From Massilia alkalitolerans DSM 17462 (GTDB taxonomy: Bacteria; Pseudomonadota; Gammaproteobacteria; Burkholderiales; Burkholderiaceae_D), in contig NZ_ATYR01000029.1 in the NCBI RefSeq assembly GCF_000427785.1, positions 1 through 64,000 on the forward strand: 64,000 nt of DNA. The letters run 5' to 3'. The translations under genes were made by a program, and so were the position numbers. A model generated the notes under the pieces. That model did no database searches. It had not been told where the DNA came from and worked only from the letters and a program-made list of their open reading frames with translations. Shown here piece after piece: positions 6,743 to 31,822 of the stretch (position 1 is the stretch's first letter; each line of letters begins with the position of its first letter).

Positions 6743-6754
6743 GTGCAACCACGC
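6743..6754 (+). promoter_or_regulatory. GTGCAACCACGC motif, copy without -10 partner
   Basis: This is the first copy of the recurring motif, 35 bp upstream of a second copy. No -10-like hexamer lies at the usual 19 nt. It may be a second binding site for the same regulator. Confidence 0.5.
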
Positions 6755-6777
6755 CTGGCGCCCAAAAGCCCTTGCGA

Positions 6778-6809
6778 TTGCAACCACGCGTCCGGCGCGC
6801 GCGTAGGAT
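6778..6809 (+). promoter_or_regulatory. Shared-motif promoter (TGCAACCACGC, 19 nt, TAGGAT)
   Basis: TTGCAACCACGCG is followed after TGCAAC and 19 nt by TAGGAT at 6804-6809. The next start codon is at 6842 with a good Shine-Dalgarno sequence. Confidence 0.55.
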
Positions 6810-6841
6810 CGGGGCATCGCAACAATCATGAGGAACAGGTA

Positions 6842-7828
6842 ATGTCCAGCAAACCATCCCGCTCGTTCTCCAGTGCTTTCGTCGCGGCCATGTCCGACAC
6901 GGCAATCCAGGCTGCGCGCCACGAGGTGCTGTCCAAGCGGATGTCGGCAGCAGCGACCGCGGTCATCGCTGGCCTGGCAATCGGGCTGACGGCGGCGCCG
7001 GCACCGGCGCAGGCCCAGAACAACCAGGTCATGCGCACGGCCGCGGACGTCGTCGGCGGCATCGTTGGCGGAGCGATCGGCAACCAGATCGGCGGCGGCA
7101 GCGGCAAGAAGGCCGCAACTGTCGCCGGGGCCGCGGCCGGTGTCTGGGTAGCTGAAGCAATGCAGTCCAACTCGGGGCAGCCGCAGCGTAGCCGTACCAG
7201 TTCGAGCAACTTCGGGCCGGCCATGGCCGCTGGTTGGGGCAATGCACCAGGTTCGAATACAACCACCCGCGTGGTCACGCGCTCGGCGGCACCCGGCGTC
7301 ACCTATACCCAGGTGCCCGTGCGCCATCAGCAAGTCCAAGGCGCCTCCTCGGTACCGGGCGTGACCTTCACCAGGGTGCCGGCGGCGCCACCGCAGCTGC
7401 ACAGCGGTACGACGCGCCTGTCGGAAGAGCGCATGGGTAAGCTCCTGACGATGGAGCGCACCTTCCTTGCCGCGCGCGACGGCTATGCCCGCGCGATCTA
7501 CACGGCGGAGCAGGCTGCTGACGATGTGGTGCTGGACGGCGGCTCGCGCACTGCCCAGCAGCAGCTGTCGGCGGCGCGCGCGCAGCAGGTCAAAGCGCAG
7601 GAAGACTTCGAAGCCGCCCGTGGCACGTTCACCAACGCGGTCGAGCACATGGGCAATCGTGGCTATGACGTGCACCAGTTCGCACATTCGCACAAGCTGG
7701 CGCAGGCCCGCGTGACGGCCGGCGATATGCGGCATGGTGACATCGTCCATGCAGCTCGCGGCCCGCGCGCCGCAATCGGCCAGGACGACAGCGACACCAT
7801 GCGCGGCCAGAGCTACAGCGCCCGCTAA
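6842..7828 (+). CDS. Glycine-zipper 2TM-type envelope protein with coiled-coil tail
   Basis: The ATG at 6842 follows GAGGAACAGG, a good ribosome site, giving 328 residues. A hydrophobic segment (AAATAVIAGLAIGLTAAP, about residues 35-55) ends in APAQAQ, like a signal peptide preceded by an unusual charged 35-residue extension. Next comes a glycine zipper (GGIVGGAIGNQIGGGSGKK), as in Rickettsia 17-kDa-type surface proteins. The middle has two copies of a PGVTxTxVP motif and the end is Ala/Gln-rich helix. It probably sits in the envelope; the function is unknown. It is the first gene behind the shared-motif promoter at 6778. Confidence 0.6.
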   Translation: MSSKPSRSFSSAFVAAMSDTAIQAARHEVLSKRMSAAATAVIAGLAIGLTAAPAPAQAQNNQVMRTAADVVGGIVGGAIGNQIGGGSGKKAATVAGAAAGVWVAEAMQSNSGQPQRSRTSSSNFGPAMAAGWGNAPGSNTTTRVVTRSAAPGVTYTQVPVRHQQVQGASSVPGVTFTRVPAAPPQLHSGTTRLSEERMGKLLTMERTFLAARDGYARAIYTAEQAADDVVLDGGSRTAQQQLSAARAQQVKAQEDFEAARGTFTNAVEHMGNRGYDVHQFAHSHKLAQARVTAGDMRHGDIVHAARGPRAAIGQDDSDTMRGQSYSAR

Positions 7829-7884
7829 CGCGTTTTTTTATCCTCGGCGCCAGCTTGCGCGCCGATTTTCCATCAGGTAGGACT

Positions 7885-8268
7885 ATGAACAAGAGCACAA
7901 TCAGCGAAGCACTTGCGGAAATGCGGATCCCTCATCGCCACATCGAAGCGATGATCCGCGAGACAGCGGTATTCCTCGGAGACGATCGACTCGACGATCG
8001 GCTGCGTGGTGAGCCGGGGTTCCACATCAAAGCAGTGGATCTGACCCAACAACTGGTGATCGCGATGACGCTGGCGCAGACGCTCAAACCGGAAGAGAAG
8101 TTCGCCAACCTGATGGGACCGGAGCGTTTTGCAGGTGGCGACAGCTGCTTGGAGAAGCTCGGTACCGCTATGCTCGAGAACATGGTGCAGTCGCCGCGCC
8201 TGGCCGAGAACCTGGTGTCGGACGATATCCTGCGCGAGCGCGCGCGAGCAATCCAGCTTTGGATGTAA
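7885..8268 (+). CDS. Hypothetical protein, 127 aa
   Basis: The ATG at 7885 follows AGGTAGG. The protein is helical and soluble, with no signal peptide and no recognised domain; it opens MNKSTISEALAEMRIPHRHI. It lies 56 nt after the glycine-zipper gene on the same strand and before a strong terminator, so the two probably form one transcript. Confidence 0.6.
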   Translation: MNKSTISEALAEMRIPHRHIEAMIRETAVFLGDDRLDDRLRGEPGFHIKAVDLTQQLVIAMTLAQTLKPEEKFANLMGPERFAGGDSCLEKLGTAMLENMVQSPRLAENLVSDDILRERARAIQLWM

Positions 8269-8332
8269 TTACGAATTCTCTGGGTGCGGCCGCTGTCTGG
8301 GCCGTGCAGTAGAAAACTGGCAGGGAGTGTTC

Positions 8333-8370
8333 AGCCGGGCGTGCTCATCGAGCATCCCGGCTGTTTTTTT
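8333..8370 (+). terminator. Rho-independent terminator after the 6.8-8.3 kb unit
   Basis: The stem AGCCGGG/CCCGGCT is extended by an inner stem TGCTC/GAGCA with loop ATC, and is followed by seven T residues (8364-8370). The minus-strand gene that follows ends right at the T run, so the site separates convergent units. Confidence 0.9.
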
Positions 8371-8986: not shown

Positions 8987-8998
8987 AAGGGTCTCCAT

Positions 8999-9571
8999 TC
9001 AGGGGGTAGGGCCGGCCATGGGCTCGGCGTCGACGTCAGTGTCGGTGTCGGGGTCGGGGTCGGCGTCGATCTCACTCTCGCCCGCGCGGCGCTGGGCTGG
9101 CCCGACGTGCACGTACGCACAGTGCTTGCGCACCAGGTCGAGATTGCCGCGGCCGTAGCGGGAAGTGACGCCGAATTGCAAGTCGCGCATGTTCACGTCC
9201 AGCAGCTCGCCATTGGCGAAGCGGATCGGCGCGGTCTCGGGCATGTCGGCCGCCTCGTAGCTAACCAGGACTTCGTGCAGCCACTGGTGCATGCCGTTGG
9301 CGTCCGGTACCGGATTCAGGGCGTTGCGGACCCACACGTAGGGGTAGAGCGCCTGGGGCTGCCGCTCGGCGAAGAATTTGTCCAGGGCCGCAGATCCGAC
9401 AGCGACGGAGACGGCACGCGACACGCCGGTGTTGAACTGGGCAAGGCTGTCGAGGAAGCCAGCCTTCTTGGCGGGGAACGTATCCCAGAGGGAGGGGAAC
9501 CGGCGCCAGGAGGGTTCGCTGGCGCGCCGGCGTAGGGCGGCTGCAGGATCGAAGGGAACGGTAGCGAGCAT
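8999..9571 (-). CDS. Hypothetical protein with acidic Asp-Pro/Asp-Thr tail, 190 aa
   Basis: The start at ATG 9571 has GAGG 8 nt upstream. The body has no recognised domain. The tail (DADPDPDTDTDVDAEP) is encoded by an imperfect tandem of a 6-bp unit around 9035-9065, where slippage could occur. The gene lies behind the shared-motif promoter at 9602-9633 and leads a short unit with the 8369-8986 gene. Confidence 0.6.
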   Translation of the reverse strand: MLATVPFDPAAALRRRASEPSWRRFPSLWDTFPAKKAGFLDSLAQFNTGVSRAVSVAVGSAALDKFFAERQPQALYPYVWVRNALNPVPDANGMHQWLHEVLVSYEAADMPETAPIRFANGELLDVNMRDLQFGVTSRYGRGNLDLVRKHCAYVHVGPAQRRAGESEIDADPDPDTDTDVDAEPMAGPTP

Positions 9572-9601
9572 GGATGGCCTCATAAATGAATCAACCATGC
9601 A

Positions 9602-9633
9602 ACTGTATCGGGGGGGCACGCGCGTGGTTGCAC
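9602..9633 (-). promoter_or_regulatory. Shared-motif promoter (GTGCAACCACGC, 19 nt, TACAGT)
   Basis: On the minus strand GTGCAACCACGC (9633-9622) is followed, 19 nt after TGCAAC, by TACAGT (9607-9602). The start codon at 9571 lies about 30 nt further on. Confidence 0.6.
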
Positions 9634-9643
9634 CCCGGTAGGG

Positions 9644-10417: not shown

Positions 10418-10453
10418 GCAATCTCGCGAGAAGGTGGAATTCTGGATCAGCGG

Positions 10454-10906
10454 TTACGCGTAGCTCAGGCACGAGACTTCAGCCTCCTCGATCGGCTCAC
10501 CATGCGCGTCAAAGCGCTCCTCGCTGGCATAGATCATGTGCACAGCATCGAGGCCGGTAAACTTGGCGAAGGCCGCTGCGACGTCGCCGTCGAGCAGATC
10601 CACCAGCGCCTCGGGCACGTACACGTGCTGGCCGACGCCGTCGTAGTCGCCGCCGCGGTAGTTGCGGTCGAACTCCACTTCCACATGCGGATCTTCAGGC
10701 TCGCACATCATGGCGTTCATTTCCGCGCTGGAGAAGTTGGCCACGAATGCGGCGTGCTGGTCCCTCGACCAGTCGCGGCCGGGCATGCCGACCAATTTAG
10801 CGCGCAGGCGCCAGACGAAGGTATCGCCCACCGGGGCTCCGTCGCGGTCAACGTAGTCGTCCGCGAAGATGCCGGCGGCGCGGTTATTGAAGTAGAAGTT
10901 GGTCAT
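10454..10906 (-). CDS. Hypothetical acidic protein, 150 aa
   Basis: The ATG at 10906 follows GGAG at good spacing. The sequence opens MTNFYFNNRAAGIFADDYVD; it is acidic, has no membrane segment and shows no recognised domain. It is the first gene after the shared-motif promoter at 10935-10966. Confidence 0.6.
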   Translation of the reverse strand: MTNFYFNNRAAGIFADDYVDRDGAPVGDTFVWRLRAKLVGMPGRDWSRDQHAAFVANFSSAEMNAMMCEPEDPHVEVEFDRNYRGGDYDGVGQHVYVPEALVDLLDGDVAAAFAKFTGLDAVHMIYASEERFDAHGEPIEEAEVSCLSYA

Positions 10907-10934
10907 GATCGCTCCACGATATTGATACGAAGCG

Positions 10935-10966
10935 ATGGTAGTGCGGCGAGGCGGGCGTGGTTGCAC
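10935..10966 (-). promoter_or_regulatory. Shared-motif promoter (GTGCAACCACGC, 19 nt, TACCAT)
   Basis: GTGCAACCACGC on the minus strand (10966-10955) is followed, 19 nt after TGCAAC, by TACCAT (10940-10935), about 30 nt before the start codon at 10906. Confidence 0.6.
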
Positions 10967-10977
10967 GCCCTGGGATG

Positions 10978-11442: not shown

Positions 11443-11454
11443 CGGACGTGTTCC

Positions 11455-11925
11455 TTAGGGAGCCGGAGCCTGGTGCTCGTCGTCGTCGGTCGGATCCAGG
11501 GCCGCGGCAACAGCAGCGCGCTCGGCCCGCATCAGGTTCTTCACGTACTGAAGCAGGCGGTCGGCCAGCTGGTCTTCGACCTGCACGCGGCACTTGAAGA
11601 AGCTCATGTCCGGGGCATGCATATTGGCGGCATCCACCCACGGCACCAGGCCGCCGCCGTCTTGCGCCAGCACGAAGGCATGTTTGTCCATGAAGACCAC
11701 CGTCGCGCGGGTATTGCTGCATACGACGTAATCGCGTCCGCCATGGCTGGCAAGGGCGGTCATCATGATGTCATTACGGTTGCCGGGAAGCTCCGGTACC
11801 TGCTTGAGGATCTCGACGGCTACGCGCGTCGCCTTGTTGCGCAGCGGCTCGTCGTGGGCGTCGTCCATGATGGCGGCGATGGTTGCTGGGTTGGCGCTCG
11901 GGGCCTGGCTTGCTGTCGTGGGCAT
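11455..11925 (-). CDS. Hypothetical protein, 156 aa
   Basis: The start ATG 11925 is preceded by AGGAACC. A longer frame extends upstream but would cross the promoter motif at 12003-12014. Visible features are a helical N-terminus (LRNKATRVAVEILKQVPELP) and a compact middle with DYVVCSNTRATVVFMDKHAF. I recognise no family. Confidence 0.6.
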   Translation of the reverse strand: MPTTASQAPSANPATIAAIMDDAHDEPLRNKATRVAVEILKQVPELPGNRNDIMMTALASHGGRDYVVCSNTRATVVFMDKHAFVLAQDGGGLVPWVDAANMHAPDMSFFKCRVQVEDQLADRLLQYVKNLMRAERAAVAAALDPTDDDEHQAPAP

Positions 11926-11974: not shown

Positions 11975-12014
11975 ATGGTATCGACAACGGCCCGGCGCGG
12001 CAGTGCAACCACGC
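11975..12014 (-). promoter_or_regulatory. Shared motif in reverse orientation with TACCAT at 22 nt
   Basis: Relative to the gene at 11925 the motif reads GCGTGGTTGCAC. TACCAT (11980-11975) follows exactly 22 nt after TTGCAC, the same spacing as in the other reversed copy at 12939. Confidence 0.5.
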
Positions 12015-12041: not shown

Positions 12042-12884
12042 CTAGATTGTTGGCGCCGACTCGGCCGCTTCGCGCGCTTGCTCACGCTGCTCGACCACCA
12101 GGTCGATGAGCTGGTCAAAGGCGTCGATGTCCAGGCATGCGATGTCGGACGGCTCGATGGGCTTGTCGTTGAACCAGAGGTCCGGGCATGCCTCGGGGAT
12201 GGAGCTGACCTCGATGTCGTGCTCGCCGATGAAATGCAACGCCGGGCGCGGTATCGCGCGCGATCCAGTGCTTGTGCCGGCGCTGCCGGCGGCCGGCAGG
12301 TACTTGATCAGGGCCACGGTGCCCACGGCCTCGCCGTTCTCGGACAGTTCGATGGCCAGCGGGCGGGCACCGTCTGCGTCGCCTGCTCGAACGAAGGCCT
12401 CGAAGCCGCGCCGGCGCAGCACCTCGGCCATCTGCGCGATCGGCGCGCGCGCGACAGGCAGCAGCTTGTCCCAGAACGCCTGGTCGCGGTAGCACGCGAG
12501 CTGCTGGTCGATCCTATCTGGCGCGCAGACAAGCTGGAGGGCAGCTTCGCCGGCCGAGAAAGCGTCGATGGCGTCGACGGTGATAGTGACGCTAGCCTGG
12601 CAGCTGTAGAGGCGATCGCGCCCGGAGTCGGGGACCGATTCCTTGACCAGGATGGAGATCGGCTCAGTGTTGGCCGATCGGGTCAGCTTCTCGCCAACAG
12701 CCGCGCGAATCGGCCCAACCGCGTAGTTCCAGGAGCGGAGGTATTCGTGGGCGTCGTCGGCCGCGTACTTGCTTGCCGTGAGGCGGTTGGTGGCCGTCAC
12801 CTGAAAATCACTGGCCGTGAGATCGACTGAGTATCGGGACAACGCCGGCGTGGCGCTCGAAGTGGGGGCGGTTGGGGTGGGCAT
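12042..12884 (-). CDS. Hypothetical protein, 280 aa
   Basis: The start is taken at ATG 12884 (MPTPTAPTSSATPALSRYSV) because an in-frame upstream extension would run through the promoter motif. The protein is acidic, with an alpha/beta middle (CQASVTITVDAIDAFSAGEA) and a helical C-terminus. No domain is recognised. It is alone behind the reversed motif at 12911-12950. Confidence 0.6.
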   Translation of the reverse strand: MPTPTAPTSSATPALSRYSVDLTASDFQVTATNRLTASKYAADDAHEYLRSWNYAVGPIRAAVGEKLTRSANTEPISILVKESVPDSGRDRLYSCQASVTITVDAIDAFSAGEAALQLVCAPDRIDQQLACYRDQAFWDKLLPVARAPIAQMAEVLRRRGFEAFVRAGDADGARPLAIELSENGEAVGTVALIKYLPAAGSAGTSTGSRAIPRPALHFIGEHDIEVSSIPEACPDLWFNDKPIEPSDIACLDIDAFDQLIDLVVEQREQAREAAESAPTI

Positions 12885-12910: not shown

Positions 12911-12950
12911 ACCGTACCGCAACGATAAGCGAAATGCAGTGCAACCACGC
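12911..12950 (-). promoter_or_regulatory. Shared motif in reverse orientation with TACGGT at 22 nt
   Basis: GCGTGGTTGCAC on the minus strand (12950-12939) is followed by TACGGT (12916-12911), 22 nt after TTGCAC and about 27 nt before the start codon 12884. Confidence 0.5.
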
Positions 12951-13951: not shown

Positions 13952-14818
13952 TTACGAGGTTGGGGCGGGGCCGTCCTCAAGGGGCCGGTCCGGCTCGAGA
14001 TCGCTCTCTTGCTCGTCGGGGGCATCTGCGCGCAACGCTGCTGCGGTCGCGCGCTCTGCACTGGCTTGCGCCAGCTTGTGGTTCCAGTTCCCCATAATGT
14101 GCGCCGGTGTGTACCAGTGCGAGTACTCTTCCAGGGTGAGCGTGTTACCGTGCACGACCACGGCGGGCACGTGCAGGAGGGACAGCTGGACGTAGGCCAT
14201 CAGCGCCGACGTCGAATCCAGGTCGACCGCGGTGACGTGGGCGTGGCGCTGGTAGTTCAGGTCACGCCTCTGCAGGGCCATCATTGCCGCGATGATAGTC
14301 GCGCCCGAACCGGATGCTGGCTCAGAAAATGTGATGAAACCCTTCTTCTTCACCTGCTCGACGACGTTGTCGGACATCGCGAGCTCGGCCATAAGTTCAC
14401 AGATGTGATGGGGGGTAAAATACTGGCCAATCCGGCTGTTCCCCAGTTCGAGCTGCATGTAGATCTCGCCCAGGATGTCGCGTGGCGCTACGGATAGGCC
14501 GTTTTGCAGCTCGGCGAACATGTGGGCGATGGTCTTCGCCTCCTCGCTGGTGTACTTACGAACTGTCTGCATATAAAGCTCTTCGCGCGCCTCTGCCTGG
14601 CGGAAGTCCAGCTTGCTGAGCGCGACGGCGCTCATTGTGACGAAGTCCCTGAATACAGTCTGGCGGCCGTGGCGCCGCCCGACTTCCTCGATCATCTTGA
14701 TAATGTTCGTGCGGTGATCAGTAGCCTGTTTCGTGAGGTTCGCTGACCGATCGTGCTCCGAGAGAAGGAGGGGCGCCTTGCTCGGCCGGGCCAGGGATGG
14801 ATCTAGGTCGCGCTTCAT
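13952..14818 (-). CDS. N6-adenine DNA methylase-like protein (HsdM-type fold), 288 aa
   Basis: The ATG at 14818 follows GAGGTG. The protein resembles the short HsdM-like methylases of plasmids and conjugative elements. It shows RIGQYFTPHHICELMAEL and the SAM-binding motif FSEPASGSGATIIAAMMAL (about residues 165-185), then VTAVDLDSTSALMAYVQLSL. The catalytic (N/D)PP(Y/F) motif expected after VHGNTLT is not visible; the chain continues EEYSHWYTPAHIMGNW. It may therefore bind SAM or DNA without methylating, or belong to a divergent subfamily. It is transcribed away from the Mrr-like nuclease gene, from a shared-motif promoter. Confidence 0.75.
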   Translation of the reverse strand: MKRDLDPSLARPSKAPLLLSEHDRSANLTKQATDHRTNIIKMIEEVGRRHGRQTVFRDFVTMSAVALSKLDFRQAEAREELYMQTVRKYTSEEAKTIAHMFAELQNGLSVAPRDILGEIYMQLELGNSRIGQYFTPHHICELMAELAMSDNVVEQVKKKGFITFSEPASGSGATIIAAMMALQRRDLNYQRHAHVTAVDLDSTSALMAYVQLSLLHVPAVVVHGNTLTLEEYSHWYTPAHIMGNWNHKLAQASAERATAAALRADAPDEQESDLEPDRPLEDGPAPTS

Positions 14819-14901: not shown

Positions 14902-17073
14902 ATGAGACGGTGGAGCCCGGATTACACCAGCTCGCGCCTGGCGTGGTTGCACGTGTTGGACGTCGATGCCAATCCAGACGCTGTCCGTGCGAGGCAACAC
15001 GAACTCGAGCGGGAGCGATACACTTGCACGGTCGACCTCATTTTGCTGTTTTACAACGTGCCTACTCTCTACGATATTGCCGCTCAGTGTGAGCTACCGC
15101 GCCCTAACGACCCGTCCGGGCGCCGGTTCGAGGAGATGTGCCTCATCATCTATTCGCACCAGTATATCGACGGCATGTTTTATAGCCGTGGCCATGTGCA
15201 GCACGGGATCGACCTCAAGATGCGTGAGCGTTGCACTGACGGCACGGCGCGGGACGTTCTTGTACAGTGTAAGGACAAGAAAGTTCTCTCGCCGTCAGAT
15301 GTCGAAGAAGACATGGCTGACGCGTTGAAACGCTGGGCGCCAACAGAAAGCATCCACCCCGATCTACTGTACGTACTCGCCACCACCGTCGAGAATCCGA
15401 ACACCGATGGCTTCAAAGCGAAATTTGCCAAGATTCGCGATCAGATCGTGGCGCCAGCTTTCCGTGACAAGGTCGAGTTAGTTGTGCATGGTTGGCCGGA
15501 CCTGACACGGTTTGTCCGCGCCACACAAGCTCTTACCGATTATTTCCTCGAACCTCTGGCCGACCATGGAACCCCAGATAGTATCGAGCTTGAGCGCATT
15601 GGAGCCTGCCTTGGCGAGTGCCTCGAAACCGGACGATTAGAGGACGCGCGTCAATATTGGGAGCAGGCCGAGAGGGCGCATCCCGGCGCGAAGTTGCCGG
15701 CGGGGTTTTCCGATAACCTGATCGAGCTGTTCTTGCGTGCAGGCGACTTTGCAGCCATGGACCGCCACCTTGATCGTTTGCTGGCATCGCGCCGCTATCG
15801 GGCCGGATACTGGGTCGCCTATCTTAGGGCCAAGCGCTTCACCACGAAGGTCGCGCGGCCGATGACCTTCAACGAACTGATGGCGAGCCGCCCTACGCCA
15901 CCATTCGACCTTGGCGCGACAATACGGCAGCGAAAAGCATCTCTACTTGCAGCCCAAGGCACGCTCGACGAGACATTGACGTTGGCGGGCTGGATGGTTA
16001 CCTACGGTGAGTACGCTGTGGCCCGAGCCGGCCTACTGCGCGCGTTGAGTCTGATTCGACAGCACTGGGCACACGAGACCGGCTTGGATCTGCCCGGTCC
16101 GGAACACCACCTGACCATCCGCGACAACCGCCTGGTTCCCATTAGCCAGCCGCTGCGACCTGATTACGTGTCCCCAGTGCCCACGACGGCCAGTGAACGC
16201 ACTGCAGTAGCCTTCGTGCAGGCCTACGAATACCTGCGCATGCTCTTCGCTACCCGGTTTGACCATGCGCGCCTGTTAGACGCCGAGACTTCGGCGCAAG
16301 GATGGACGCAATTCTTCGACGAGAACCGGCACGCGTTGTCGGTCGAGGACTATTTTGCTTTTCTCCATACACGCGGATTCGAGGCCGAGGTCGAGGCGCG
16401 CTTCCGCGAAGCTGGTTTGGCTGGCTTCTATGCCGAAGCCATGCGCATGCAGTTCAGTTGGCACGAAACCGACATGGGATACGAAAAGGTTCCCCATGCG
16501 AGCATCCCCTACAGCGTCGTATGCACCTCAAGCGTCATGCTGGCGGACTGCGAATTTGACAGTTTCGAGACGCGCCGCTCTGAGGCTTGGTTGACAGCGC
16601 CAACTCTGGCAGTCGAGCGCATGATAGCGACAGTTAGCCTTCTGGACATTCTCGATGACGACGTGCGCCGATTCTCTGGGCGGAGCGAGGCGAATCATCA
16701 CTCGAGGCGTGCTGTTAAAGTGCGCGCCCTGCTGCGCGTGTGCTCATTGGACCAGCGAACTGTTGGTAGCCGCGACGTGTTGGTTCGACCCGTTTATGAG
16801 AACGCACAGGCCATCGGCGCAGAACCCGCATCCGATATCGGGCGCCTGCGGTCTCCTTGTGGCGACTATCCGGGTGGGCCCGGTTGGGCGAGCGTAGACC
16901 GTTACAGCGCGGAACTGGATGCGGTGATCGCAATGTCGAACCATGGCAGGTCACCAATGATCGGGAGTTGGTCGGAATGCGCGCGCGCCAAAGCGAGCGG
17001 TGCTTTGCAAATTCAGTTGCCATGGCTTGTGGTTCCGAATGTCCAGGGCGAGGCGAGCCTGGGACAGTTATAG
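14902..17073 (+). CDS. Mrr-like PD-(D/E)xK nuclease with helical-repeat tail (putative defence protein)
   Basis: The start is uncertain: ATG 14902 is used, but GTG 14953 is possible, and the first option places the shared motif inside the coding region. From ATG 14902 the protein has about 723 residues. An N-terminal nuclease fold shows a helix glutamate (RRFEEMCLII, about 75), HGIDLKMRER (Asp, about 102) and VLVQCKDKK (Q-x-K, about 118), the restriction-endonuclease-like pattern of Mrr. A TPR-like helical stretch follows (ECLETGRLEDARQYWEQAER, later YAVARAGLLRALSLI). The last 120 residues look less orderly. It is divergent from the methylase gene. The domain layout suggests a nucleic-acid-cleaving defence effector; this is inference. 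Confidence 0.6.
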   Translation: MRRWSPDYTSSRLAWLHVLDVDANPDAVRARQHELERERYTCTVDLILLFYNVPTLYDIAAQCELPRPNDPSGRRFEEMCLIIYSHQYIDGMFYSRGHVQHGIDLKMRERCTDGTARDVLVQCKDKKVLSPSDVEEDMADALKRWAPTESIHPDLLYVLATTVENPNTDGFKAKFAKIRDQIVAPAFRDKVELVVHGWPDLTRFVRATQALTDYFLEPLADHGTPDSIELERIGACLGECLETGRLEDARQYWEQAERAHPGAKLPAGFSDNLIELFLRAGDFAAMDRHLDRLLASRRYRAGYWVAYLRAKRFTTKVARPMTFNELMASRPTPPFDLGATIRQRKASLLAAQGTLDETLTLAGWMVTYGEYAVARAGLLRALSLIRQHWAHETGLDLPGPEHHLTIRDNRLVPISQPLRPDYVSPVPTTASERTAVAFVQAYEYLRMLFATRFDHARLLDAETSAQGWTQFFDENRHALSVEDYFAFLHTRGFEAEVEARFREAGLAGFYAEAMRMQFSWHETDMGYEKVPHASIPYSVVCTSSVMLADCEFDSFETRRSEAWLTAPTLAVERMIATVSLLDILDDDVRRFSGRSEANHHSRRAVKVRALLRVCSLDQRTVGSRDVLVRPVYENAQAIGAEPASDIGRLRSPCGDYPGGPGWASVDRYSAELDAVIAMSNHGRSPMIGSWSECARAKASGALQIQLPWLVVPNVQGEASLGQL
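14921..14952 (-). promoter_or_regulatory. Shared-motif promoter (GTGCAACCACGC, 19 nt, TGTAAT)
   Basis: On the minus strand GTGCAACCACGC (14952-14941) is followed, 19 nt after TGCAAC, by TGTAAT (14926-14921). The methylase start at 14818 lies about 100 nt on. The motif overlaps the possible 5' end of the divergent nuclease gene. Confidence 0.55.
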
Positions 17074-17095: not shown

Positions 17096-17127
17096 GAGCA
17101 ACCACGCCTGCCGCAACTCGGCAATAT
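17096..17127 (+). promoter_or_regulatory. Shared-motif promoter (GAGCAACCACGC, 19 nt, CAATAT)
   Basis: A one-base variant of the motif is followed, 19 nt after AGCAAC (17097-17102), by CAATAT (17122-17127), 24 nt before the start codon at 17152. Confidence 0.5.
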
Positions 17128-17151: not shown

Positions 17152-18699
17152 ATGCCTACTCAGCCCTTCATCACCCCTGAACGACACCTCACCCTGCGCA
17201 ACATCCTCGGCTTCTGCGAGGAGTTCAAGCGCCACCATGGTCGCTGGCCGCGCGTCACCGATGGCGACGAGCAGTTCCAAGAGGCCGGCATGCAAGGCTT
17301 GTCCGGTGCCGCTATCGAGCGCGTCTTGCGCAAGTCGAGCAACGGCCTGGCCGACGACCCCGAGTTCCAGGAGGTTCGCTCGCTCGCGTTCGCCAACGGC
17401 GGCTGGGACGTCTCGATCCAGTTCATCGATCCCGAGCTGTGCCGGCGCATGCCGGAAGCCCAGCTGGAGCGCCTGGTCGATTCGATCTCGGTGCGCACCG
17501 AGCGCGGCGTATCAGCTGCCGGGGCGGCCGACGGCCGGATGTATGTGAGCCTGCCAATCGAGACGAATTGGCGCACTGGCCAACCTGCCTATGCGCCGGT
17601 CAGCAGCGAGCTGCTGGACTACATCGGCGCCCGCGGCCTGGTGTACGGGAACAACCCGGCCTCGGTGCCGCAAGAGTACTACCTGGAGGTCGTTCCCAAC
17701 GGTCGCCTCTACCTGAAATACAACCGGATTATTGGCAGCCGATACGTGGGCACTGTCTCGCCCGAGCGCCTTGAGCAGCTGCGAGAGCGGTTGGTGAGCG
17801 AATCCCTGCGGGAGCGCATCGCAGGGCCGCGAGCTGGAGCGGATGCTGCGGCCCCAGCCCCGGCGCAGCTTACGCTTTCGCAGGAGTTGGCGCTGCTGAC
17901 CGTCGTTGACGGAAGGCTCCAGCTGCCGAAGCAGCAGCTGCGCCACTATGACGACATCAGTCGCCTCATGGGCAAGGCCGGCGGCCGCTATGTAACGGGC
18001 CGCAAGCAGTTTGTCTTCGACGAGGGCATCGACAGCGCGGATCTGCTCAAGCGCCTGATCGCAGGCGAAACCGTGAATTTCCAGCAGCAGTACCAGTTTT
18101 TCGCCACGCCTGAAAAGGAAGCGGTCGCCGCGGCCGAGCAGCTGCGCGCAGCGCTGGGAACCCTGAAAGGCATGCGCATTCTAGATCCCTCGGCTGGCGA
18201 CGGGGCACTAGCCCAGGTGGCGCGCAGCATGGGGGCCGAGGTGGTCACCATCGAGCTGTGGAAGGTCAATGCGATCAAGCTGCGCGCGAATGGCTTCAAC
18301 GTACTGGAGCGGGACTTCCTGACTGTGACGCCAGACGAAATTGGGAAATTCGATGGCGTGCTGGCGAACCCACCATTTTCCTCAAATCAGGATATTGCGC
18401 ATGCGAAACACATGCTGCAGTTCATCCGCCCAGGCGGCGCGCTATCGGTGATTATGTCGACCGCCTGGACAGACGGCCGCACGAAGGCGCATGCGGAATT
18501 CAAGGAGTTCCTGGCGTCGCAGAACGTGACGATCACGCCGATCGAGGCGGGAGCTTTTCGCGAATCCGGCACCACAGTCCCTACAGTGCGGCTGGACTTC
18601 AAGGAGGTCAACGTGCCGCGCGTGGCGCAGGACTTCCAATACGACCCGGCCCTGGAGGAAGTGGAGCAGGAAGAGCCATTCGCCCTGACGATGCAATAA
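17152..18699 (+). CDS. Class I SAM-dependent N6-adenine DNA methyltransferase, 515 aa
   Basis: The C-terminal half is a methyltransferase domain with motif I ILDPSAGDGALAQVA (about residue 343), the acidic loop VTIELWKVNAIKL, and the catalytic FDGVLANPPFSSNQD with NPPF (about 405). This is the signature of adenine-N6 methylases. The N-terminal 300 residues, including YVTGRKQFVFDEGIDSADLL, form a separate region often seen fused to phage and plasmid methylases. It has its own shared-motif promoter and precedes the AbiE-like pair. On a mobile element it could protect DNA from host restriction. Confidence 0.8.
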   Translation: MPTQPFITPERHLTLRNILGFCEEFKRHHGRWPRVTDGDEQFQEAGMQGLSGAAIERVLRKSSNGLADDPEFQEVRSLAFANGGWDVSIQFIDPELCRRMPEAQLERLVDSISVRTERGVSAAGAADGRMYVSLPIETNWRTGQPAYAPVSSELLDYIGARGLVYGNNPASVPQEYYLEVVPNGRLYLKYNRIIGSRYVGTVSPERLEQLRERLVSESLRERIAGPRAGADAAAPAPAQLTLSQELALLTVVDGRLQLPKQQLRHYDDISRLMGKAGGRYVTGRKQFVFDEGIDSADLLKRLIAGETVNFQQQYQFFATPEKEAVAAAEQLRAALGTLKGMRILDPSAGDGALAQVARSMGAEVVTIELWKVNAIKLRANGFNVLERDFLTVTPDEIGKFDGVLANPPFSSNQDIAHAKHMLQFIRPGGALSVIMSTAWTDGRTKAHAEFKEFLASQNVTITPIEAGAFRESGTTVPTVRLDFKEVNVPRVAQDFQYDPALEEVEQEEPFALTMQ

Positions 18700-18769: not shown

Positions 18770-19669
18770 ATGCCAAAACGTCAAATTTCCCCCACTGAGG
18801 CCTTCGACCTGCGTCAGGCTCTCCATGTGTCCGTACTCGAGGCCCTGATGGCTTCGCGCCGATGGGCGCCGGGCGAACTGATTTTCCAGGGTGGCACGAG
18901 CCTTCATCTGGTGCACGGTTCCCCTCGGTTCTCCGAAGACCTGGACTTCCTGGTCTCCGATGCGCTCAAGCTCGGCTCGATCGGCACGTCGGTGCAGTCG
19001 CGGCTGGCCGGCATGCCCTGGGTACCTGCAGACATGGCGCTGAGCGTGACGCCGGCCAAAGATGGGCGCAATCCTCACATGTTCGATGTGGCCATCAGCG
19101 GCGAGGGCGTGCTGGGCTCGGTGCGGGTGAAGGTCGAGTTGTGGCAGGCGCCAGCCGAGGCGCTCAAGCCGTTGGCCACCACTGTCTCACCCGTACGCGT
19201 CATCGTTGGCCGTGCGGCTGGCGCTCAGGCCTTCGTGCCGACGCTCGAACTCAGGGAGATCTTCGCCGACAAGGTGTTCGCAGTGGCGGCGCGCCCATAC
19301 TTGAAGCCGCGGGATGTATTCGATCTGTACTGGTTGGCCGAGCGTGGCGAGGCCAGCTCGTGCACGAGCGAAGACCTGCAGATCCGCCTGGCCACGTATC
19401 CGAACGAGGCGCCGGAAAGCTGGCTGGAGAAGGCCGCCGTGCGGCGCCAGGAGCTCCTGGGGTCGGCCAAGCAGGTGAAGGCGGACCTGCGCCGTTGGTT
19501 GCCTGCGTCGTGGCCCCTGACGGACGACAAGGTGGCCGCCATGGTCGAGGCTTCGGTCGCAGCACTCGACCGCGGCGTGCACAGCATGCGCGAGCTCGCG
19601 GATGCGCGAGTAGCGTCGGCCGACGAAGATCAGGACGTCGAGCCTGAAGGAGATTACCCAGCACCATGA
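18770..19669 (+). CDS. AbiEii/AbiGii-type nucleotidyltransferase toxin, 299 aa
   Basis: The ATG follows GGAG. Near residues 42-62 it shows FQGGTSLHLVHGSPRFSEDL and then DF, matching the GGT-x-L and GS-x-R-x-S-x-DLDF active-site pattern of AbiEii nucleotidyltransferases. Such toxins transfer nucleotides to target RNAs in type IV toxin-antitoxin modules and phage abortive infection. The later part (LELREIFADKVFAVAAR, then KPRDVFDLYWL) matches the family C-terminal region. It overlaps the next gene as ATGA. The usual gene order is antitoxin first; here the toxin-like gene is first. Confidence 0.85.
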   Translation: MPKRQISPTEAFDLRQALHVSVLEALMASRRWAPGELIFQGGTSLHLVHGSPRFSEDLDFLVSDALKLGSIGTSVQSRLAGMPWVPADMALSVTPAKDGRNPHMFDVAISGEGVLGSVRVKVELWQAPAEALKPLATTVSPVRVIVGRAAGAQAFVPTLELREIFADKVFAVAARPYLKPRDVFDLYWLAERGEASSCTSEDLQIRLATYPNEAPESWLEKAAVRRQELLGSAKQVKADLRRWLPASWPLTDDKVAAMVEASVAALDRGVHSMRELADARVASADEDQDVEPEGDYPAP

Positions 19670-22506: not shown

Positions 22507-23469
22507 TTGGACCAGATCGCGACCTATGGTGCTTACCGCACCGCTCCCCTCCATGAGCTAGAGCTATTCCAAGGCGAAACCGATCCAGCCGTAGGCGAGA
22601 TGGTCGCCGACTGTGCGATCGTGCGAGTATTGGCCGGCAAGCCGGTCGAGCACGAAGGTCGTGCGCGCATCTATATCGTCCTGGCGGGCGAGCTCGAAGT
22701 TGCGGCCAGTGCGAACGCCGGCGGCGGCGTATCCAGCACTGTGTTGCCCGGCGAGTGCGTGGGTGAGCATGCGGTGCTCGACGGCGCGGCGGAGCTGGCC
22801 ACCATGACGGCAGTGCAGGACAGCGAGCTGCTGGTGATCGAGTCGGATACCGTCTGGGCGCTGATCGAGCGGTCGCACCTTGTCTCGCGCAACCTCCTGC
22901 GTCTCCTTTCCTTCCGCATTCGCGCGGCGAACGCGATGCTGCAACGCCGCCAGAAGCTGGGTGACTTTTACCGCCAGCTCTCGCTCAACGACGCGCTCAC
23001 CGGCTTGTACAACCGGGCCTGGCTCAACGAGATGCTTCCCAAGCTCGCCTCGCGCGCCATGGAGCAGGGCAGCGCCCTGTCCCTGTTGATGATTGATCTC
23101 GACCATTTCAAGCGCTTCAACGACACGCATGGGCATCCTGCCGGCGACGCCGCCTTGGCGGCCGCGGCGGGCGCGATTCGCAGTGCTCTACGGCCGACGG
23201 ATTTCGCCGTGCGCTATGGGGGAGAGGAAATGATGGTGCTGCTGCCCCACACGACCCAGGAGCAGGCGCTCAGCGTCGCAGGGCGCCTATGCGAGTGCCT
23301 GCGAACGGCCGCGGTGTTTGACGACATGCGGTTGCCGCTGCCGCACATCACCGGCTCGCTCGGCCTGGCCAGCCTCGGGCCGGACGGGAACGAGCGCGCC
23401 CTGATGGATGCGGCCGACGCAGCCCTGTATCGTGCGAAGGAACAGGGCCGGAATCGCGTCTGTACGTGA
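22507..23469 (+). CDS. Cyclic-nucleotide-binding-like/GGDEF diguanylate cyclase, 320 aa
   Basis: TTG 22507 is preferred because AAGAGG stands 6 nt upstream; TTG 22465 is also in frame. Residues about 20-140 form a cNMP-binding beta barrel (IYIVLAGELEVA, then GECVGEHAVLDG). A GGDEF domain follows with LNDALTGLYNRAWLNE, LLMIDLDHFKRFNDTHGHPA and the active loop RYGGEEMMVLLP. The loop reads GGEEM rather than GGEEF, and an I-site RPTD sits five residues before it. The enzyme should make c-di-GMP from two GTP if the Met is tolerated. It lies between plasmid-like hypothetical genes. Confidence 0.85.
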   Translation: MDQIATYGAYRTAPLHELELFQGETDPAVGEMVADCAIVRVLAGKPVEHEGRARIYIVLAGELEVAASANAGGGVSSTVLPGECVGEHAVLDGAAELATMTAVQDSELLVIESDTVWALIERSHLVSRNLLRLLSFRIRAANAMLQRRQKLGDFYRQLSLNDALTGLYNRAWLNEMLPKLASRAMEQGSALSLLMIDLDHFKRFNDTHGHPAGDAALAAAAGAIRSALRPTDFAVRYGGEEMMVLLPHTTQEQALSVAGRLCECLRTAAVFDDMRLPLPHITGSLGLASLGPDGNERALMDAADAALYRAKEQGRNRVCT

Positions 23470-24277: not shown

Positions 24278-24853
24278 TCAAGCGCGGGACGCCATGCTTT
24301 CCTGCTCGTGCTCCTCCGGACGCGCAGGTGGGATCGAAGCGAGTGCCGCGTTCGCGAGCTCGGGCGTGAGGCCAGCTTCGGTGAAGCGCTCGACGAGCCT
24401 GTCGTAGCTGTCGATCCCGGTGCCGACGGACACGAAGCCCTGGGCCTGCAGTTTGTAGAGAAGATTGGCGGTACCGAAGGCGCCTTCCGACTCATAGCCG
24501 TAGTCGACCATCAGGTGGCCATCGTCGACGCCGATCGCAACAGCGTTGTGGTCGGGCAGCGCCAGGATGCAGCGCCGCGTGCGCCCGGTCGCGTCGGCCA
24601 CCAGGGTGTAGTAGGACATCATGGCTGGCAGCCATGGCGTGCCGGCCGGTGAGCCTGCGAACAGCGAGCGGTACATGCAGGTGCGGTTCGTCACTGGAAA
24701 GCCCTTTGCTTCGAGCATTGCACAGTGCTCCGCCAGCCGATTGGCCGCCTCTTCGAAGAGTTCGCGATCGCGGTAGTCGAAGTGCTCCACCTCGCGGCCA
24801 CGCCAGGCGATGTAGCCGCCCCGTAATTGGGTGATCAGGTGCCGCGAGCTCAT
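24278..24853 (-). CDS. Hypothetical protein, 191 aa
   Basis: The ATG at 24853 overlaps the stop of the upstream gene as ATGA, so the two are translationally coupled. A helical N-terminus (DRELFEEAANRLAEHCAMLE) is followed by a beta-rich middle with YYTLVADATGRTRRCILAL. No family is recognised. Confidence 0.6.
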   Translation of the reverse strand: MSSRHLITQLRGGYIAWRGREVEHFDYRDRELFEEAANRLAEHCAMLEAKGFPVTNRTCMYRSLFAGSPAGTPWLPAMMSYYTLVADATGRTRRCILALPDHNAVAIGVDDGHLMVDYGYESEGAFGTANLLYKLQAQGFVSVGTGIDSYDRLVERFTEAGLTPELANAALASIPPARPEEHEQESMASRA

Positions 24854-25251
24854 TGATGCATTCCTTCTGCCGGAGCGTCGATCGGCGCGACCTCTTCGGA
24901 CAGGGCATCGACCAGGAGCGCATCAAGGATCGCAGGGTTCACCATGACATGCGGCTGGCGGATAATCGCATCGGTGTTGAACGCGGTCAGGCGGCGCACC
25001 GGTTCATCTTCGTCAGCGCCCTCGAGGTCGTAGTCGCCCAGCACCACCTGAACGCCGAAGTTCGCGGTCGCGCCCTGGACCATGCCGCCTTCGAGGCCGA
25101 CGTAGACCTTCGGCACAAAGCCGGCGCCAGTGACGGCCGCGCGCAGCTGCTCAAGTGCCGGCGCCGGCGCGCCGGCCGGGCCCGACAGGGTGTTGTTCAG
25201 GAGCGCAGCGAGTTGCTGCTCCATTTCTGGCGTCAGGGCGATGAGTTTCAT
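24850..25251 (-). CDS. Hypothetical protein, 133 aa
   Basis: This is the first gene behind the shared-motif promoter at 25320-25351. It is helical at the N-terminus (LTPEMEQQLAALLNNTLSGP), followed by a small beta region (VYVGLEGGMVQGATANFGVQ). No domain is recognised; it is coupled to the next gene by ATGA overlap. Confidence 0.6.
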   Translation of the reverse strand: MKLIALTPEMEQQLAALLNNTLSGPAGAPAPALEQLRAAVTGAGFVPKVYVGLEGGMVQGATANFGVQVVLGDYDLEGADEDEPVRRLTAFNTDAIIRQPHVMVNPAILDALLVDALSEEVAPIDAPAEGMHQ

Positions 25252-25319: not shown

Positions 25320-25351
25320 AGTGTAAGGAGCCGCCGCGGGCGTGGTTGCAC
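25320..25351 (-). promoter_or_regulatory. Shared-motif promoter (GTGCAACCACGC, 19 nt, TACACT)
   Basis: GTGCAACCACGC on the minus strand (25351-25340) is followed, 19 nt after TGCAAC, by TACACT (25325-25320). The same hexamer at the same distance is found at 31791-31796. Confidence 0.65.
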
Positions 25352-25407
25352 CCACAAGGTCGGACAGCTGGGTTATGTTTCTCCACGTCATTTTTTTGCT
25401 AGCCGAC

Positions 25408-26534: not shown

Positions 26535-26544
26535 TAGAGGTGCT

Positions 26545-26937: not shown

Positions 26938-26949
26938 GTTGTTACTCCT

Positions 26950-27279
26950 TTACGATACGGATGGGGAAGTGGCTTCTTCGTCTTCGTCGTGGTCAATGCT
27001 GTCCAGCGTGATCTGCGGATTCCTGCACGCGTAAATGCTGGCCGTGAGCGATGCCCGCAAGTGTTCCAGTCCGCCCGCGCCATGCCGGAATGTCACGGAG
27101 ACCGGCGACTCGGTGCTCACCAGCAGTACTCGGTCTGGGAAATATTCCTGCTTGGCCAGGCGAAGCCAGCCGAAGCCGACGTCGCTGGCGGCCGGGTGCT
27201 CACGGAGCTCGCAAGCGCGTGCTTCGGGCACGTGTTCGCATTTAATTTCCAGGGATTGTGCGCTGATGGACGGTTGCAT
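26950..27279 (-). CDS. Hypothetical protein, 109 aa
   Basis: The start is taken at ATG 27279 (MQPSISAQSLEIKCEHVPEA) because the shared-motif promoter ends at 27308. The protein is a small alpha/beta chain with a beta strand pair near VLLVSTESPVSVTFRHGAGG. It lies 12 nt before the 26545-26937 gene, so the two probably share a transcript. Confidence 0.55.
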   Translation of the reverse strand: MQPSISAQSLEIKCEHVPEARACELREHPAASDVGFGWLRLAKQEYFPDRVLLVSTESPVSVTFRHGAGGLEHLRASLTASIYACRNPQITLDSIDHDEDEEATSPSVS

Positions 27280-27307
27280 GCTCTTCGGTGACAAAAGTAG
27301 AGCGCCC

Positions 27308-27338
27308 AGTATCGCCCGCGCGGCGAGCCGTGGTTGCA
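27308..27338 (-). promoter_or_regulatory. Shared-motif promoter variant (TTGCAACCACGG, 19 nt, GATACT)
   Basis: A slightly diverged copy of the motif is followed, 19 nt after TGCAAC (27338-27333 on the minus strand), by GATACT (27313-27308), about 29 nt before the start codon. Confidence 0.5.
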
Positions 27339-27486
27339 AAGATGGTGCTTGTCAGCGTCGAGCTGCTATGCCGCGCGCAGTCGGCTGGCGCTCGTTGCAC
27401 CTGTGGCGCCGCGGGACAAAACCGTAGGAACGTCAGGTATTGGGGAAGATGCGTGCGCAGGAGCTCCGCGCACGCGCACAGAGGGT

Positions 27487-28473: not shown

Positions 28474-28497
28474 ATGTGTTCGTGTTCGGCCGGCGCC

Positions 28498-29381: not shown

Positions 29382-29584
29382 TCAAACTCCTCAGTCAAAT
29401 AGGTTGGCCACGGCATGGCGCCGGGCAGGGAAACTACCAGATTATGCCGCAAAAGTTGTTACGTAGCATAGGCACGCGGCGTAAATGTTGCGCGGTGGGA
29501 TCATAGGGATGGCATGAATTCCGTGTATGTATTGTGAAATCCGCATCAGGCAAAATAGAGCTTCACAACTACTGGAGCATTGCG

Positions 29585-29830
29585 ATGAACCCTACCGAGA
29601 AGAACACTACCTGGAACGTAACGGTCGAGGACGAAGAGGGCGAGAGCCGCGTGATCGATATTCAGTGGTGCGCGACGGCGCCGACGGTCGACGAGGCGGC
29701 CAGCGCCATCAGGCACATCGTCCTGGCCGGCACGATGTTCCCGAAGAATGACACCCGCGAGTCGAGCTACCACACCGCAACGCTGCTGGAAGCGCACGGC
29801 CACAAGATCACCAAGATCGAGAAGGCCTAG
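29585..29830 (+). CDS. Hypothetical small protein, 81 aa
   Basis: The ATG at 29585 follows GGAG; longer in-frame starts have no such site. It opens MNPTEKNTTWNVTVEDEEGE. The protein is acidic and small, with VIDIQWCATAPTVDEAASAI. Its stop overlaps the end of the convergent DndC-like gene by 4 bp. No family is recognised. Confidence 0.6.
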   Translation: MNPTEKNTTWNVTVEDEEGESRVIDIQWCATAPTVDEAASAIRHIVLAGTMFPKNDTRESSYHTATLLEAHGHKITKIEKA

Positions 29831-31719
29831 AACGGCACGGCGCCCTGCGTGACCTGGTCGTCGGCCGGGTCTTCCTCGTCGACGTCGGCGCTGGGCTCCG
29901 CCTCCGGTGCACTGAACTCCGTTGGCGCCGGCGCGGCCGCGGCGATGCGGGGATCGTCGCTCGGTACCAAGGCCTCTTTCTTCGGCGGCCGCCACGCGAG
30001 CTGCGCTTCAGGTGGGAGCTCCTCGAACGGCACCGAGCGCGCCAGCAGGTCTTCTACCGAGTACTCCAGGGAGAGCCCCTGGCGATCCTTGAAGGCCGTG
30101 CGACGCAGGACTTCATCGTGCTTGGCCAACTGCCCGTGCGAGAGCGTGAGTACGCCCAGCAGCACGTATCGCTGATAAGCGAAGCCGGCGCCGTTGCCGG
30201 AGTATCCCCTGTCGATGTCCTCGTATATTCTCTCCAGCTCGAAGTCCTCGAACATCATCGCCGCCTCCATGTCCACGCCGAACTGCAGCTCGCGGTTGAC
30301 GTCCCAGACCTTCGTCCCGTCCTTCAACTCCGTCAGCGGCACGCAGCCGCTGTCGCCGACAAGGCCTTCGATATAGTCGCTGCGCAGTCCAGTGAAGTTC
30401 GACCTGCTGTTGTCATCCCATTCGGTACCGACGTACAGGTACCGGGAGCTGGGAAACGGCTGCGCTGGGGTGGTCGGCACCTCCGGGATGTCGTAGCGGA
30501 TGCCGCGCTGGTGAATATCGCGGTAGTCGGCCCAAACCTGGAAGGGGCGGGCCACGCCGTTGAGGTTTTGCATCGCGTCGACAGCGATCATCATGTCGAC
30601 CGGAAGCAGCTTGAATTTCGGTGGTTCGCCGGCGCGCCGCGCGCGCAACCCTTCATCGTGGTCGAGCTGCAGCATGTAGCGGGTGAGCTCGCGGAGGAAT
30701 TTCGGGTGGTATGTGTCAGGCTTGATTTCGACCCAGCCGCCCTTGATCGTGCGGCCGATCCAGTGGCGCCTGGACCAGTCATAGCGCGTTGCGCGAATAA
30801 GTTTGTTCAGCTTATTCAAGCCCTGAGCGTATGCGTAACGGGGGTCGAACGCGATCATCGCTTCGAGGCTTTTGTCCTCTGCTCGCTGACAGCTGTGGCA
30901 ACCATGTCGCGCGCCATAACCTTTGCTCTTGCGAGCCTGATGCTCGTCCATAGCCATGACTGAGCACGACGTTCCGGCCGAGTGCGCATAGATCCGGTCG
31001 GTCTCTTTCATGTCCGAGTACGAGTCGAGCAGGCCATTGGAGATGTTGCCCAGGTGCTCGAACACGTCGTCTTCGGACCAGTCGGCGATCGGCGACAGCA
31101 CCAACTCGCCGGCCTTGTTTCGGACCGGTTCAATCGCGTTATCGCCTCGTGCACGCATGTTGTTGCCGCGTGCGACCGACTCATCCAGGCGCATGCCAAG
31201 GACCGTTACCGGCTCTGGCAAGCCCTGCTTCAGCCAGTGCGCAAACAGGTTCTTTCTGAACCGTTTCTGTGGTGCACCTTTCAAGTCCGCACTGCAATCT
31301 GCAGAGCCGCCAGGGAAGCTTGGAATGCCGCGGCCGGACAGGATTTTCACCTGCCAGGTCGAGGCCAGAGTCGGCGTAACAATCGCGGTTTTGAGGTTCA
31401 ATCCGTGCCTGCGCGCGTACTGGCCCATCTTGTTGAGTTCGCTGCGATAGTGGTTTGAAATCTCCGGATTTTCAACGAGAGTGTCACTGGTGCCCACGAC
31501 CAAGACAGGCTCGCCACCTTCGGCCTTGAAACGGCGCGCGGCCCGCAGACCAATGTCCACGCATACGCTCGAGTCCTTTCCGCCGCTGTAACCAAAATAT
31601 GCAGGTCGACCTTGCACGAACAGGTCGTAGATAGCCTCCTCCGCAGCCGCGAGCTTCTGTGCGATATCGTCGGAGATGGCCGGTATGCGGGCATGGAACT
31701 GCAGAGTTTCGATCTTCAT
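29827..31719 (-). CDS. DndC-like PAPS-reductase-superfamily sulfurtransferase, 630 aa
   Basis: The N-terminal half is an ATP-pyrophosphatase fold with YSGGKDSS (residues 44-51), TSDTLVENPEIS (about 77-88) and LGMRLDESVARGNNM (about 174-188), which closely parallel DndC. Cysteines 142, 252, 274 and 277 (GCHSCQRAEDKSLE) could hold an Fe-S cluster as in DndC. The 250-residue C-terminus is extra. DndC activates sulfur for DNA phosphorothioation, but no dndB, dndD, dndE or cysteine desulfurase is nearby, so the substrate is unknown. It is driven from the shared-motif promoter at 31791-31822. Confidence 0.75.
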   Translation of the reverse strand: MKIETLQFHARIPAISDDIAQKLAAAEEAIYDLFVQGRPAYFGYSGGKDSSVCVDIGLRAARRFKAEGGEPVLVVGTSDTLVENPEISNHYRSELNKMGQYARRHGLNLKTAIVTPTLASTWQVKILSGRGIPSFPGGSADCSADLKGAPQKRFRKNLFAHWLKQGLPEPVTVLGMRLDESVARGNNMRARGDNAIEPVRNKAGELVLSPIADWSEDDVFEHLGNISNGLLDSYSDMKETDRIYAHSAGTSCSVMAMDEHQARKSKGYGARHGCHSCQRAEDKSLEAMIAFDPRYAYAQGLNKLNKLIRATRYDWSRRHWIGRTIKGGWVEIKPDTYHPKFLRELTRYMLQLDHDEGLRARRAGEPPKFKLLPVDMMIAVDAMQNLNGVARPFQVWADYRDIHQRGIRYDIPEVPTTPAQPFPSSRYLYVGTEWDDNSRSNFTGLRSDYIEGLVGDSGCVPLTELKDGTKVWDVNRELQFGVDMEAAMMFEDFELERIYEDIDRGYSGNGAGFAYQRYVLLGVLTLSHGQLAKHDEVLRRTAFKDRQGLSLEYSVEDLLARSVPFEELPPEAQLAWRPPKKEALVPSDDPRIAAAAPAPTEFSAPEAEPSADVDEEDPADDQVTQGAVPF

Positions 31720-31790
31720 CGGCGATGCTGTTTGCGTTCCCACACACACAAACGTTTGTGGGAGACACGCGTTCTGTTTGTGATGCTCGG

Positions 31791-31822
31791 AGTGTAGGAG
31801 TCAGCGAGACGCGTGGTTGCAA
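31791..31822 (-). promoter_or_regulatory. Shared-motif promoter (TTGCAACCACGC, 19 nt, TACACT)
   Basis: TTGCAACCACGCG on the minus strand is followed, 19 nt after TGCAAC (31821-31816), by TACACT (31796-31791). It would drive the DndC-like gene starting at 31719. Confidence 0.65.

Follow-up and report, generated by a model that had tools for sequence, protein, structure and literature searches.

A box at fixed distance from sigma-70-like -10 hexamers points to a plasmid-wide activator regulon in Massilia alkalitolerans

We analysed the first 64,000 nucleotides (nt) of contig NZ_ATYR01000029.1 of Massilia alkalitolerans DSM 17462 (positions 1-64000 of contig C21; hereafter the window), from a draft genome of 6.11 Mb in 75 contigs. 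By inference from its protein matches, the window is part of a large plasmid with Dot/Icm-like transfer genes, of the type of pJAB4160 from Janthinobacterium sp. HH102. A short word, GTGCAACCACGC (the box), is repeated across this plasmid and is very probably the binding site of one activator that would control genes throughout it. The motif, its spacing, its restriction to the plasmid and its conservation, both in pJAB4160 and in a plasmid recovered in pieces from a metagenome-assembled genome (MAG), were established computationally.

A direct motif search recovered all eleven copies that an earlier note on this DNA had reported between 6.7 and 31.8 kb, seven of them exact, three with one mismatch and one with two. 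Ten copies have ≤1 mismatch, whereas 100 dinucleotide shuffles averaged 0.73 such copies (maximum 4). At ≤3 mismatches the excess was gone (93 copies vs 109 expected, no enrichment), so the signal is a tight motif. Eight forward copies were followed by a -10-like hexamer exactly 19 nt past TGCAAC, equal to 14 nt past the 12-mer (TAGGAT, TACAGT, TACCAT, TGTAAT, CAATAT, TACACT, GATACT and TACACT), and two reversed copies had TACCAT or TACGGT at exactly 22 nt, all located as claimed. The earlier observation is correct, and it was understated. The sites in the window are as follows.

6743..6754 (+): box GTGCAACCACGC, upstream member of a pair spaced 35 nt, no -10 at 14 nt; the pair is kept in the MAG plasmid (C518:48751/48786).
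6778..6809 (+): box TTGCAACCACGC with -10 TAGGAT (6804-6809); gene likely from ATG 6842, end 7828; orthologous sites in pJAB4160 and the MAG plasmid.
9602..9633 (-): box 9622-9633 with -10 TACAGT; precedes gene 8999-9571 (-).
10935..10966 (-): box 10955-10966 with -10 TACCAT; precedes gene 10454-10906 (-); site in all three plasmids.
11975..12014 (-): reversed box 12003-12014 with -10 TACCAT (11975-11980); precedes gene 11455-11925 (-); TAACAT at the MAG plasmid ortholog.
12911..12950 (-): reversed box 12939-12950 with -10 TACGGT (12911-12916); gene likely starts at 12884 (-); TACCGT at the MAG plasmid ortholog.
14921..14952 (-): box 14941-14952 with -10 TGTAAT; precedes N6-methylase gene 13952-14818 (-).
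17096..17127 (+): box GAGCAACCACGC with -10 CAATAT; precedes methyltransferase-like gene 17152-18699 and AbiEii-like gene 18770-19669; box and -10 identical in the MAG plasmid.
25320..25379 (both strands): box 25340-25351 (-) with two divergent -10s, TACACT 25320-25325 (-) for gene 24850-25251 and the conserved TATGTT 25374-25379 (+, reversed class) for a gene likely from 25408; both hexamers identical in the MAG plasmid.
27308..27339 (-): box TTGCAACCACGG 27328-27339 with -10 GATACT; precedes gene 26950-27279 (-).
31791..31822 (-): box TTGCAACCACGC 31811-31822 with -10 TACACT; precedes DndC-like gene 29827-31719 (-).

Genome-wide, 48 copies with ≤1 mismatch were found, of which 33 lay on contigs C7 (19), C21 (10) and C34 (4), together 266 kb of the 6.11 Mb, and 15 elsewhere. 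A backward control gave 99 matches against the 48 real ones; there is thus no genome-wide excess at this threshold, and the excess is confined to C7, C21 and C34. When box and -10 were combined at the exact spacing (≤1 mismatch), 30/32 matches in the genome fell on these three contigs and the backward control gave two. Equal motif density in chromosomal DNA had been named as the finding that would speak against a regulon; the comparison was run and the claim stands. The motif is not a property of an accessory block, as had been proposed, the boxes being scattered across the plasmid contigs. TGCAACCACG was the most over-represented 10-mer in this plasmid set (35 vs 0.61 expected). An exact copy on C20, without a -10 at 14 nt, was excluded, and two intragenic one-mismatch copies on C21 (42125, 71403) were retained.

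The spacing was likewise fixed across the three plasmids. A box entered the sample if its last 11 bases held at most one mismatch, and for the offset counts the -10 played no part in this choice. A -10-like hexamer stood exactly 14 nt past the box at 59/101 boxes (25/46, 13/22 and 21/33 in the individual plasmids), and no other offset exceeded six. In 47 pre-gene boxes from two plasmids, information was high in (T/G)TGCAACCACGCC, a logo sharpened by the choice of sites, and in (T/C)A..(A/C)T at positions 27-32, which reads as a sigma-70-like -10 element. As the earlier note had stated, no TTGACA-like -35 is present: with spacers of 16-18 nt allowed, 56 forward sites matched at most 2/6 bases and the other three 3/6. 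The median distance from box to start codon was 56.5 nt (32 forward sites, the window's plasmid and pJAB4160). A further box, inside a TraM-like gene (C7:49726), is kept with at most one mismatch in each of the three plasmids; TACACT stands 25 nt downstream of it, about one helical turn beyond the usual position. The conservation of this box may reflect protein constraint.

Conservation followed the same geometry. In 32 forward ortholog pairs, mean identity was 0.96 in the box, 0.54 in the spacer and 0.94 in the -10 (1.00 at its second and sixth bases), with 0.47-0.61 in the downstream and 0.36-0.42 in the upstream flanks. Across all 46 listed pairs, the -10 position reached 0.82 vs 0.55 for the spacer. 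For boxes read in reverse, the best offset was 22 nt (11/101 boxes; runner-up 8). Six reversed ortholog pairs had identities of 0.99 in the box, 0.56 in the spacer, 0.86 in the hexamer and 0.36 in the following 20 nt, and kept the second and sixth hexamer bases in 6/6 cases; in a seventh pair, located beside rep, the hexamer is displaced by one base. Reversed boxes with a -10 at 22 nt are likely a genuine class. Upstream of rep, two boxes (C7:77451 and 77567) stand beside a CCCCGAAAACTATGGC repeat, likewise in the MAG plasmid, and one of them has a reversed hexamer at 23 rather than 22 nt.

Several points weigh against this picture. At 14 nt, 42/101 boxes fell below the -10 score, some of them reversed and some intragenic or in the replication region. 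The 32 forward pairs were listed by hand as forward-class sites, and the six reversed pairs were selected as candidates for that class. When the window's plasmid was shuffled by itself, 146/2000 shuffles equalled the reversed class at some offset. The box word was not among the ten top 10-mers shown for pJAB4160, which are repeats. Finally, the 14 remaining ortholog pairs, whose sites are reversed, intragenic, in the replication region or second boxes, had an identity of 0.54 at the -10 position, no higher than in the spacer; set against 0.94 in the forward pairs, this indicates that the hexamer is kept where it acts as a -10 and not elsewhere. Separately, pJAB4160 carries ACCACGTCGA in 57 and CTGCAGGAAC in 64 copies, far over expectation, which are likely long repeat arrays.

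The plasmid assignment is based on pJAB4160 (160 kb, circular), matched by 97/310 predicted proteins of C7, C34, C21 and a stretch of C20 (E ≤ 1e-4) in long collinear stretches. Its gene content includes DotA, DotH and TraM-like transfer proteins, replication and partition genes, a strawberry-notch protein, topoisomerases and ImuA. Gene calling relied on a simple script, which leaves start positions and small genes approximate. RdgC is split between the end of C7 and C21:6439, which suggests that the two contigs adjoin; other genes occupy 1-6 kb of C21 ahead of the second part. Those at 1233-5143, near the contig start and ahead of this rdgC part (6439-6669), we take from their size and layout to be insertion sequence-like.

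The second relative comprises an 87-kb MAG contig and companion pieces: in a set of seven MAG pieces, 115/310 proteins found matches at E ≤ 1e-8, all on five of them, and boxes occur at places orthologous to those of the window's plasmid. The MAG genome held 24 exact 11-mer matches, 11 on C518 and eight on C346, C407, C450 and C463, these being the pieces to which plasmid proteins matched; its ≤1-mismatch total of 218 was not above the backward control of 244. C478 and C498, with neither a plasmid-protein match nor a -10 at 14 nt, were excluded from the offset and gene-distance counts, and C180, C320 and C399 (one exact 11-mer each) lie outside the sample. An Achromobacter plasmid (185 kb) and a Cupriavidus plasmid (first 100 kb of 104 kb) have a partly common backbone with no exact 11-mer, and eight and two one-mismatch 11-mers, respectively. 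TTTCACCGGTGAAA, over-represented in the Achromobacter plasmid, was considered as a parallel system and rejected; we take it for a partition site because 7/8 exact 16-mer copies lie at 120.2-120.8 kb beside parAB (one at 64.2 kb).

The plasmid family carrying the box is rare. DotH among 392 family genomes, the 150-amino-acid (aa) protein family described below among 399 order genomes and the strawberry-notch protein among 369 class genomes were each found only in the window's own genome. The exact composite pattern occurred 11 times in this genome and once (15 genomes) or twice (one genome) in 16 others of the 392, which we take as chance. Viral contigs yielded no protein-level relatives and five single composite-pattern matches.

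From these patterns we infer activation by a single, plasmid-encoded regulator. The asymmetric box (12-13 bp) would span about -38 to -26, the place of the -35 element, with the sigma-70-type -10 lying 13-14 nt past it. As a class II activator, the box-bound protein would then take over from the -35 and hold host RNA polymerase via region 4 of sigma or via the alpha C-terminal domain. At a smaller set of promoters the box would be reversed, at about -46 to -35 with the -10 at 22 nt, and one box or more may serve two divergent genes. The earlier note had left the choice between an activator and an alternative sigma factor driving a regulon of the mobile element. Its single-regulator regulon is strongly supported by plasmid restriction, fixed spacing and ortholog footprints in two other plasmids; the alternative sigma fits less well, and we prefer an activator, given the sigma-70 character of the -10 and the apparent use of some boxes in reverse.

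That alternative, in which a plasmid-encoded sigma, or a split sigma using a 75-aa sigma-4-like protein, would recognise the box as its -35 element, appears improbable. The box does lie at the -35 position with fixed spacing, and the conserved 75-aa protein resembles sigma region 4, its operon's box promoter being kept in three plasmids. However, the -10 is not of a non-sigma-70 type, reversed boxes do not suit a sigma, and no region-2 partner was found among the plasmid proteins scanned (a subset of all); moreover, the presumed recognition helix of the 75-aa protein varies among the plasmids, whereas the box does not. We regard it as very unlikely that the box is the operator of a global repressor, comparable to KorA and KorB, the global repressors on IncP plasmids. 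The promoters have no usable -35, so unaided they should be weak and leave little to repress, and the box is asymmetric and its offset exact, although a site overlapping the -35 position would suit a repressor too. It is extremely unlikely that the copies represent a dispersed repeat, or a signal for DNA maintenance, lying near genes by chance, as the two boxes by rep (C7:77451, 77567) might suggest, given that forward pairs keep the -10 locked to the box and almost equally conserved but not the spacer.

Since the composite pattern is nearly confined to the plasmid, the reader of the activator site is likely a plasmid-encoded factor. The three plasmids have 78 proteins in common, of which 47 lack a match (E ≤ 1e-3) in the Achromobacter plasmid or the first 100 kb of the Cupriavidus plasmid; the 47 include a 150-aa, the 75-aa sigma-4-like and a 114-aa protein. 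The 150-aa protein (C7:59542-59994) is ranked first, as a tentative candidate, since a box that does not vary should have a reader that does not vary either: it is 82% identical to both relatives (132 and 131 residues), with the segment SEGTLRDIVSRRTW, which we read as a putative recognition helix, identical. Its C-terminal region resembles an HNH endonuclease tail (PHROG 9e-4), presumably a helix-turn-helix; it had no Pfam match and no hit in a PDB profile search. The 75-aa protein (C7:128127-128354) is a more doubtful candidate. It scored 6e-4 in Pfam (below cut-off) and 3e-5 against a PHROG sigma model, and is 59 and 56% identical to its relatives. In a single-sequence structure model (pLDDT 79) the top five Foldseek matches were chains of sigma/anti-sigma complexes, the best E being only 1.0, a resemblance that is suggestive only; in the PDB profile search the two best matches of this family were immunoglobulin-binding protein A entries, and two sigma matches were weak (0.21, 0.85). 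Within the plasmid collection, only pJAB4160 has the 150-aa and 75-aa proteins.

The 114-aa protein gave weak MerR/helix-turn-helix matches, and a 105-aa family one weak unrelated match in the PDB profile search. A conserved 188-aa protein (C7:47316-47882) was rejected as regulator; it has no Pfam match and weak unrelated PDB matches, and among plasmids occurs only in pJAB4160. ParB was set aside because it has relatives in 192 plasmid records.

SetCD of SXT/R391 integrative and conjugative elements is grouped with AcaCD of IncA/C plasmids as a similar regulon, and the box-to--10 geometry, judged from sequence alone, fits the class II position of the FlhDC/AcaCD/SetCD type. A class 2 profile is described for AcaCD promoters (PMC4207636), and the likeness lies in one activator at many promoters across a conjugative element. 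The box differs by eye from the AcaCD sites given there, a reversed class is likely here, and the plasmid contigs have no FlhC-like match: a six-frame genome scan with PF05280 (E ≤ 0.001) gave one match, on C1, and none on C7, C21 or C34. In ICEclc, 8/9 bimodal promoters have a common 27-bp motif linked to BisDC (PMC9286271), likewise an element-wide regulon, and BisC contains DUF2857 (PMC7423338). This domain (PF11198) gave two sub-cut-off matches in the genome (E ≤ 1), on C1 and C22, and none on the plasmid contigs, and it is on this that the two are set apart.

T4 middle promoters have a short box centred near -30 in place of the -35, 12 +/- 1 bp before a sigma-70 -10 (PMC2988021). The likeness to this MotA-box, sigma-appropriation system is one of geometry only, a box replacing the -35 at fixed distance from the -10; the box sequence, the slightly longer distance and the plasmid rather than phage setting differ. 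A PHROG scan of 10 plasmid proteins gave no match named MotA or AsiA, though no search was aimed at either. MarA/SoxS/Rob/RamA use a monomer site in opposite directions at class I and class II promoters (PMC8811837). Use of the box in both orientations here would be comparable, with six conserved reversed pairs but a weak shuffle test; sequence and distances differ, and no AraC-type domain was found among the plasmid proteins scanned. By action, then, the box system resembles AcaCD, BisDC and T4 middle promoters; by the tests applied it is assigned to none of them. Literature searches returned no description of the box for TTGCAACCACGC (supplements and many journals being outside coverage), only unrelated plant work for GCAACCACGC with plasmid and regulon, and nothing for pJAB4160. 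A bolder version of the activator reading, which we hold to be unlikely, is that a plasmid-encoded activator outside every described family redirects the host's sigma-70 polymerase plasmid-wide, possibly with the 75-aa protein as partner. This would be a plasmid counterpart of phage sigma appropriation, with one asymmetric box, two orientations and two fixed distances.

With a looser -10 score and rough unit borders, 74/241 predicted genes of the plasmid part sit in transcription units behind a box. In the window these include the N6-methylase gene, the methyltransferase-like and AbiEii-like genes and the DndC-like gene. The same restriction, spacing and footprints lend strong support to the proposal that the regulon covers the methylases and the DndC-like gene. 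On C7, boxes precede the strawberry-notch gene, the sigma-4-like operon and a unit leading to DotA. No box at promoter spacing was found on C21 past 33.5 kb.

Among ten window proteins scanned, those at 39295-62071 represent copper-type cargo, again with no box at promoter spacing: CusB-like and CusA-like proteins, a multicopper oxidase, a TonB receptor and an outer membrane efflux protein. The CusA-like match in the open reading frame at 41433-44000 begins at profile position 188/1021, and another frame lies just upstream. A DpdA-like (DeoxyPurine in DNA protein A) gene at 37552-38556 (-) (Pfam 4.5e-20) adjoins 35421-36530 and 36527-37525, both without a Pfam match; MAG piece C407 matches the DpdA-like protein at 79% and the 35421-36530 protein at 53% identity. 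The protein of 22507-23469 has cyclic-nucleotide-binding and GGDEF domains, and its N-terminal half weakly matches PADLOC TIR/PycTIR effector models.

If the activator reading is true, methylases, DndC-like, AbiEii-like, transfer and DNA-processing genes of a large plasmid would be set jointly by one factor. Such control would be comparable to that by AcaCD or BisDC in other elements, without a detectable FlhC-like or BisC-like subunit. The analysis provides a precise promoter code (12-mer, 14 nt, -10) together with a short list of candidate regulators, and the plasmid may offer a natural case of an asymmetric activator working in two geometries.

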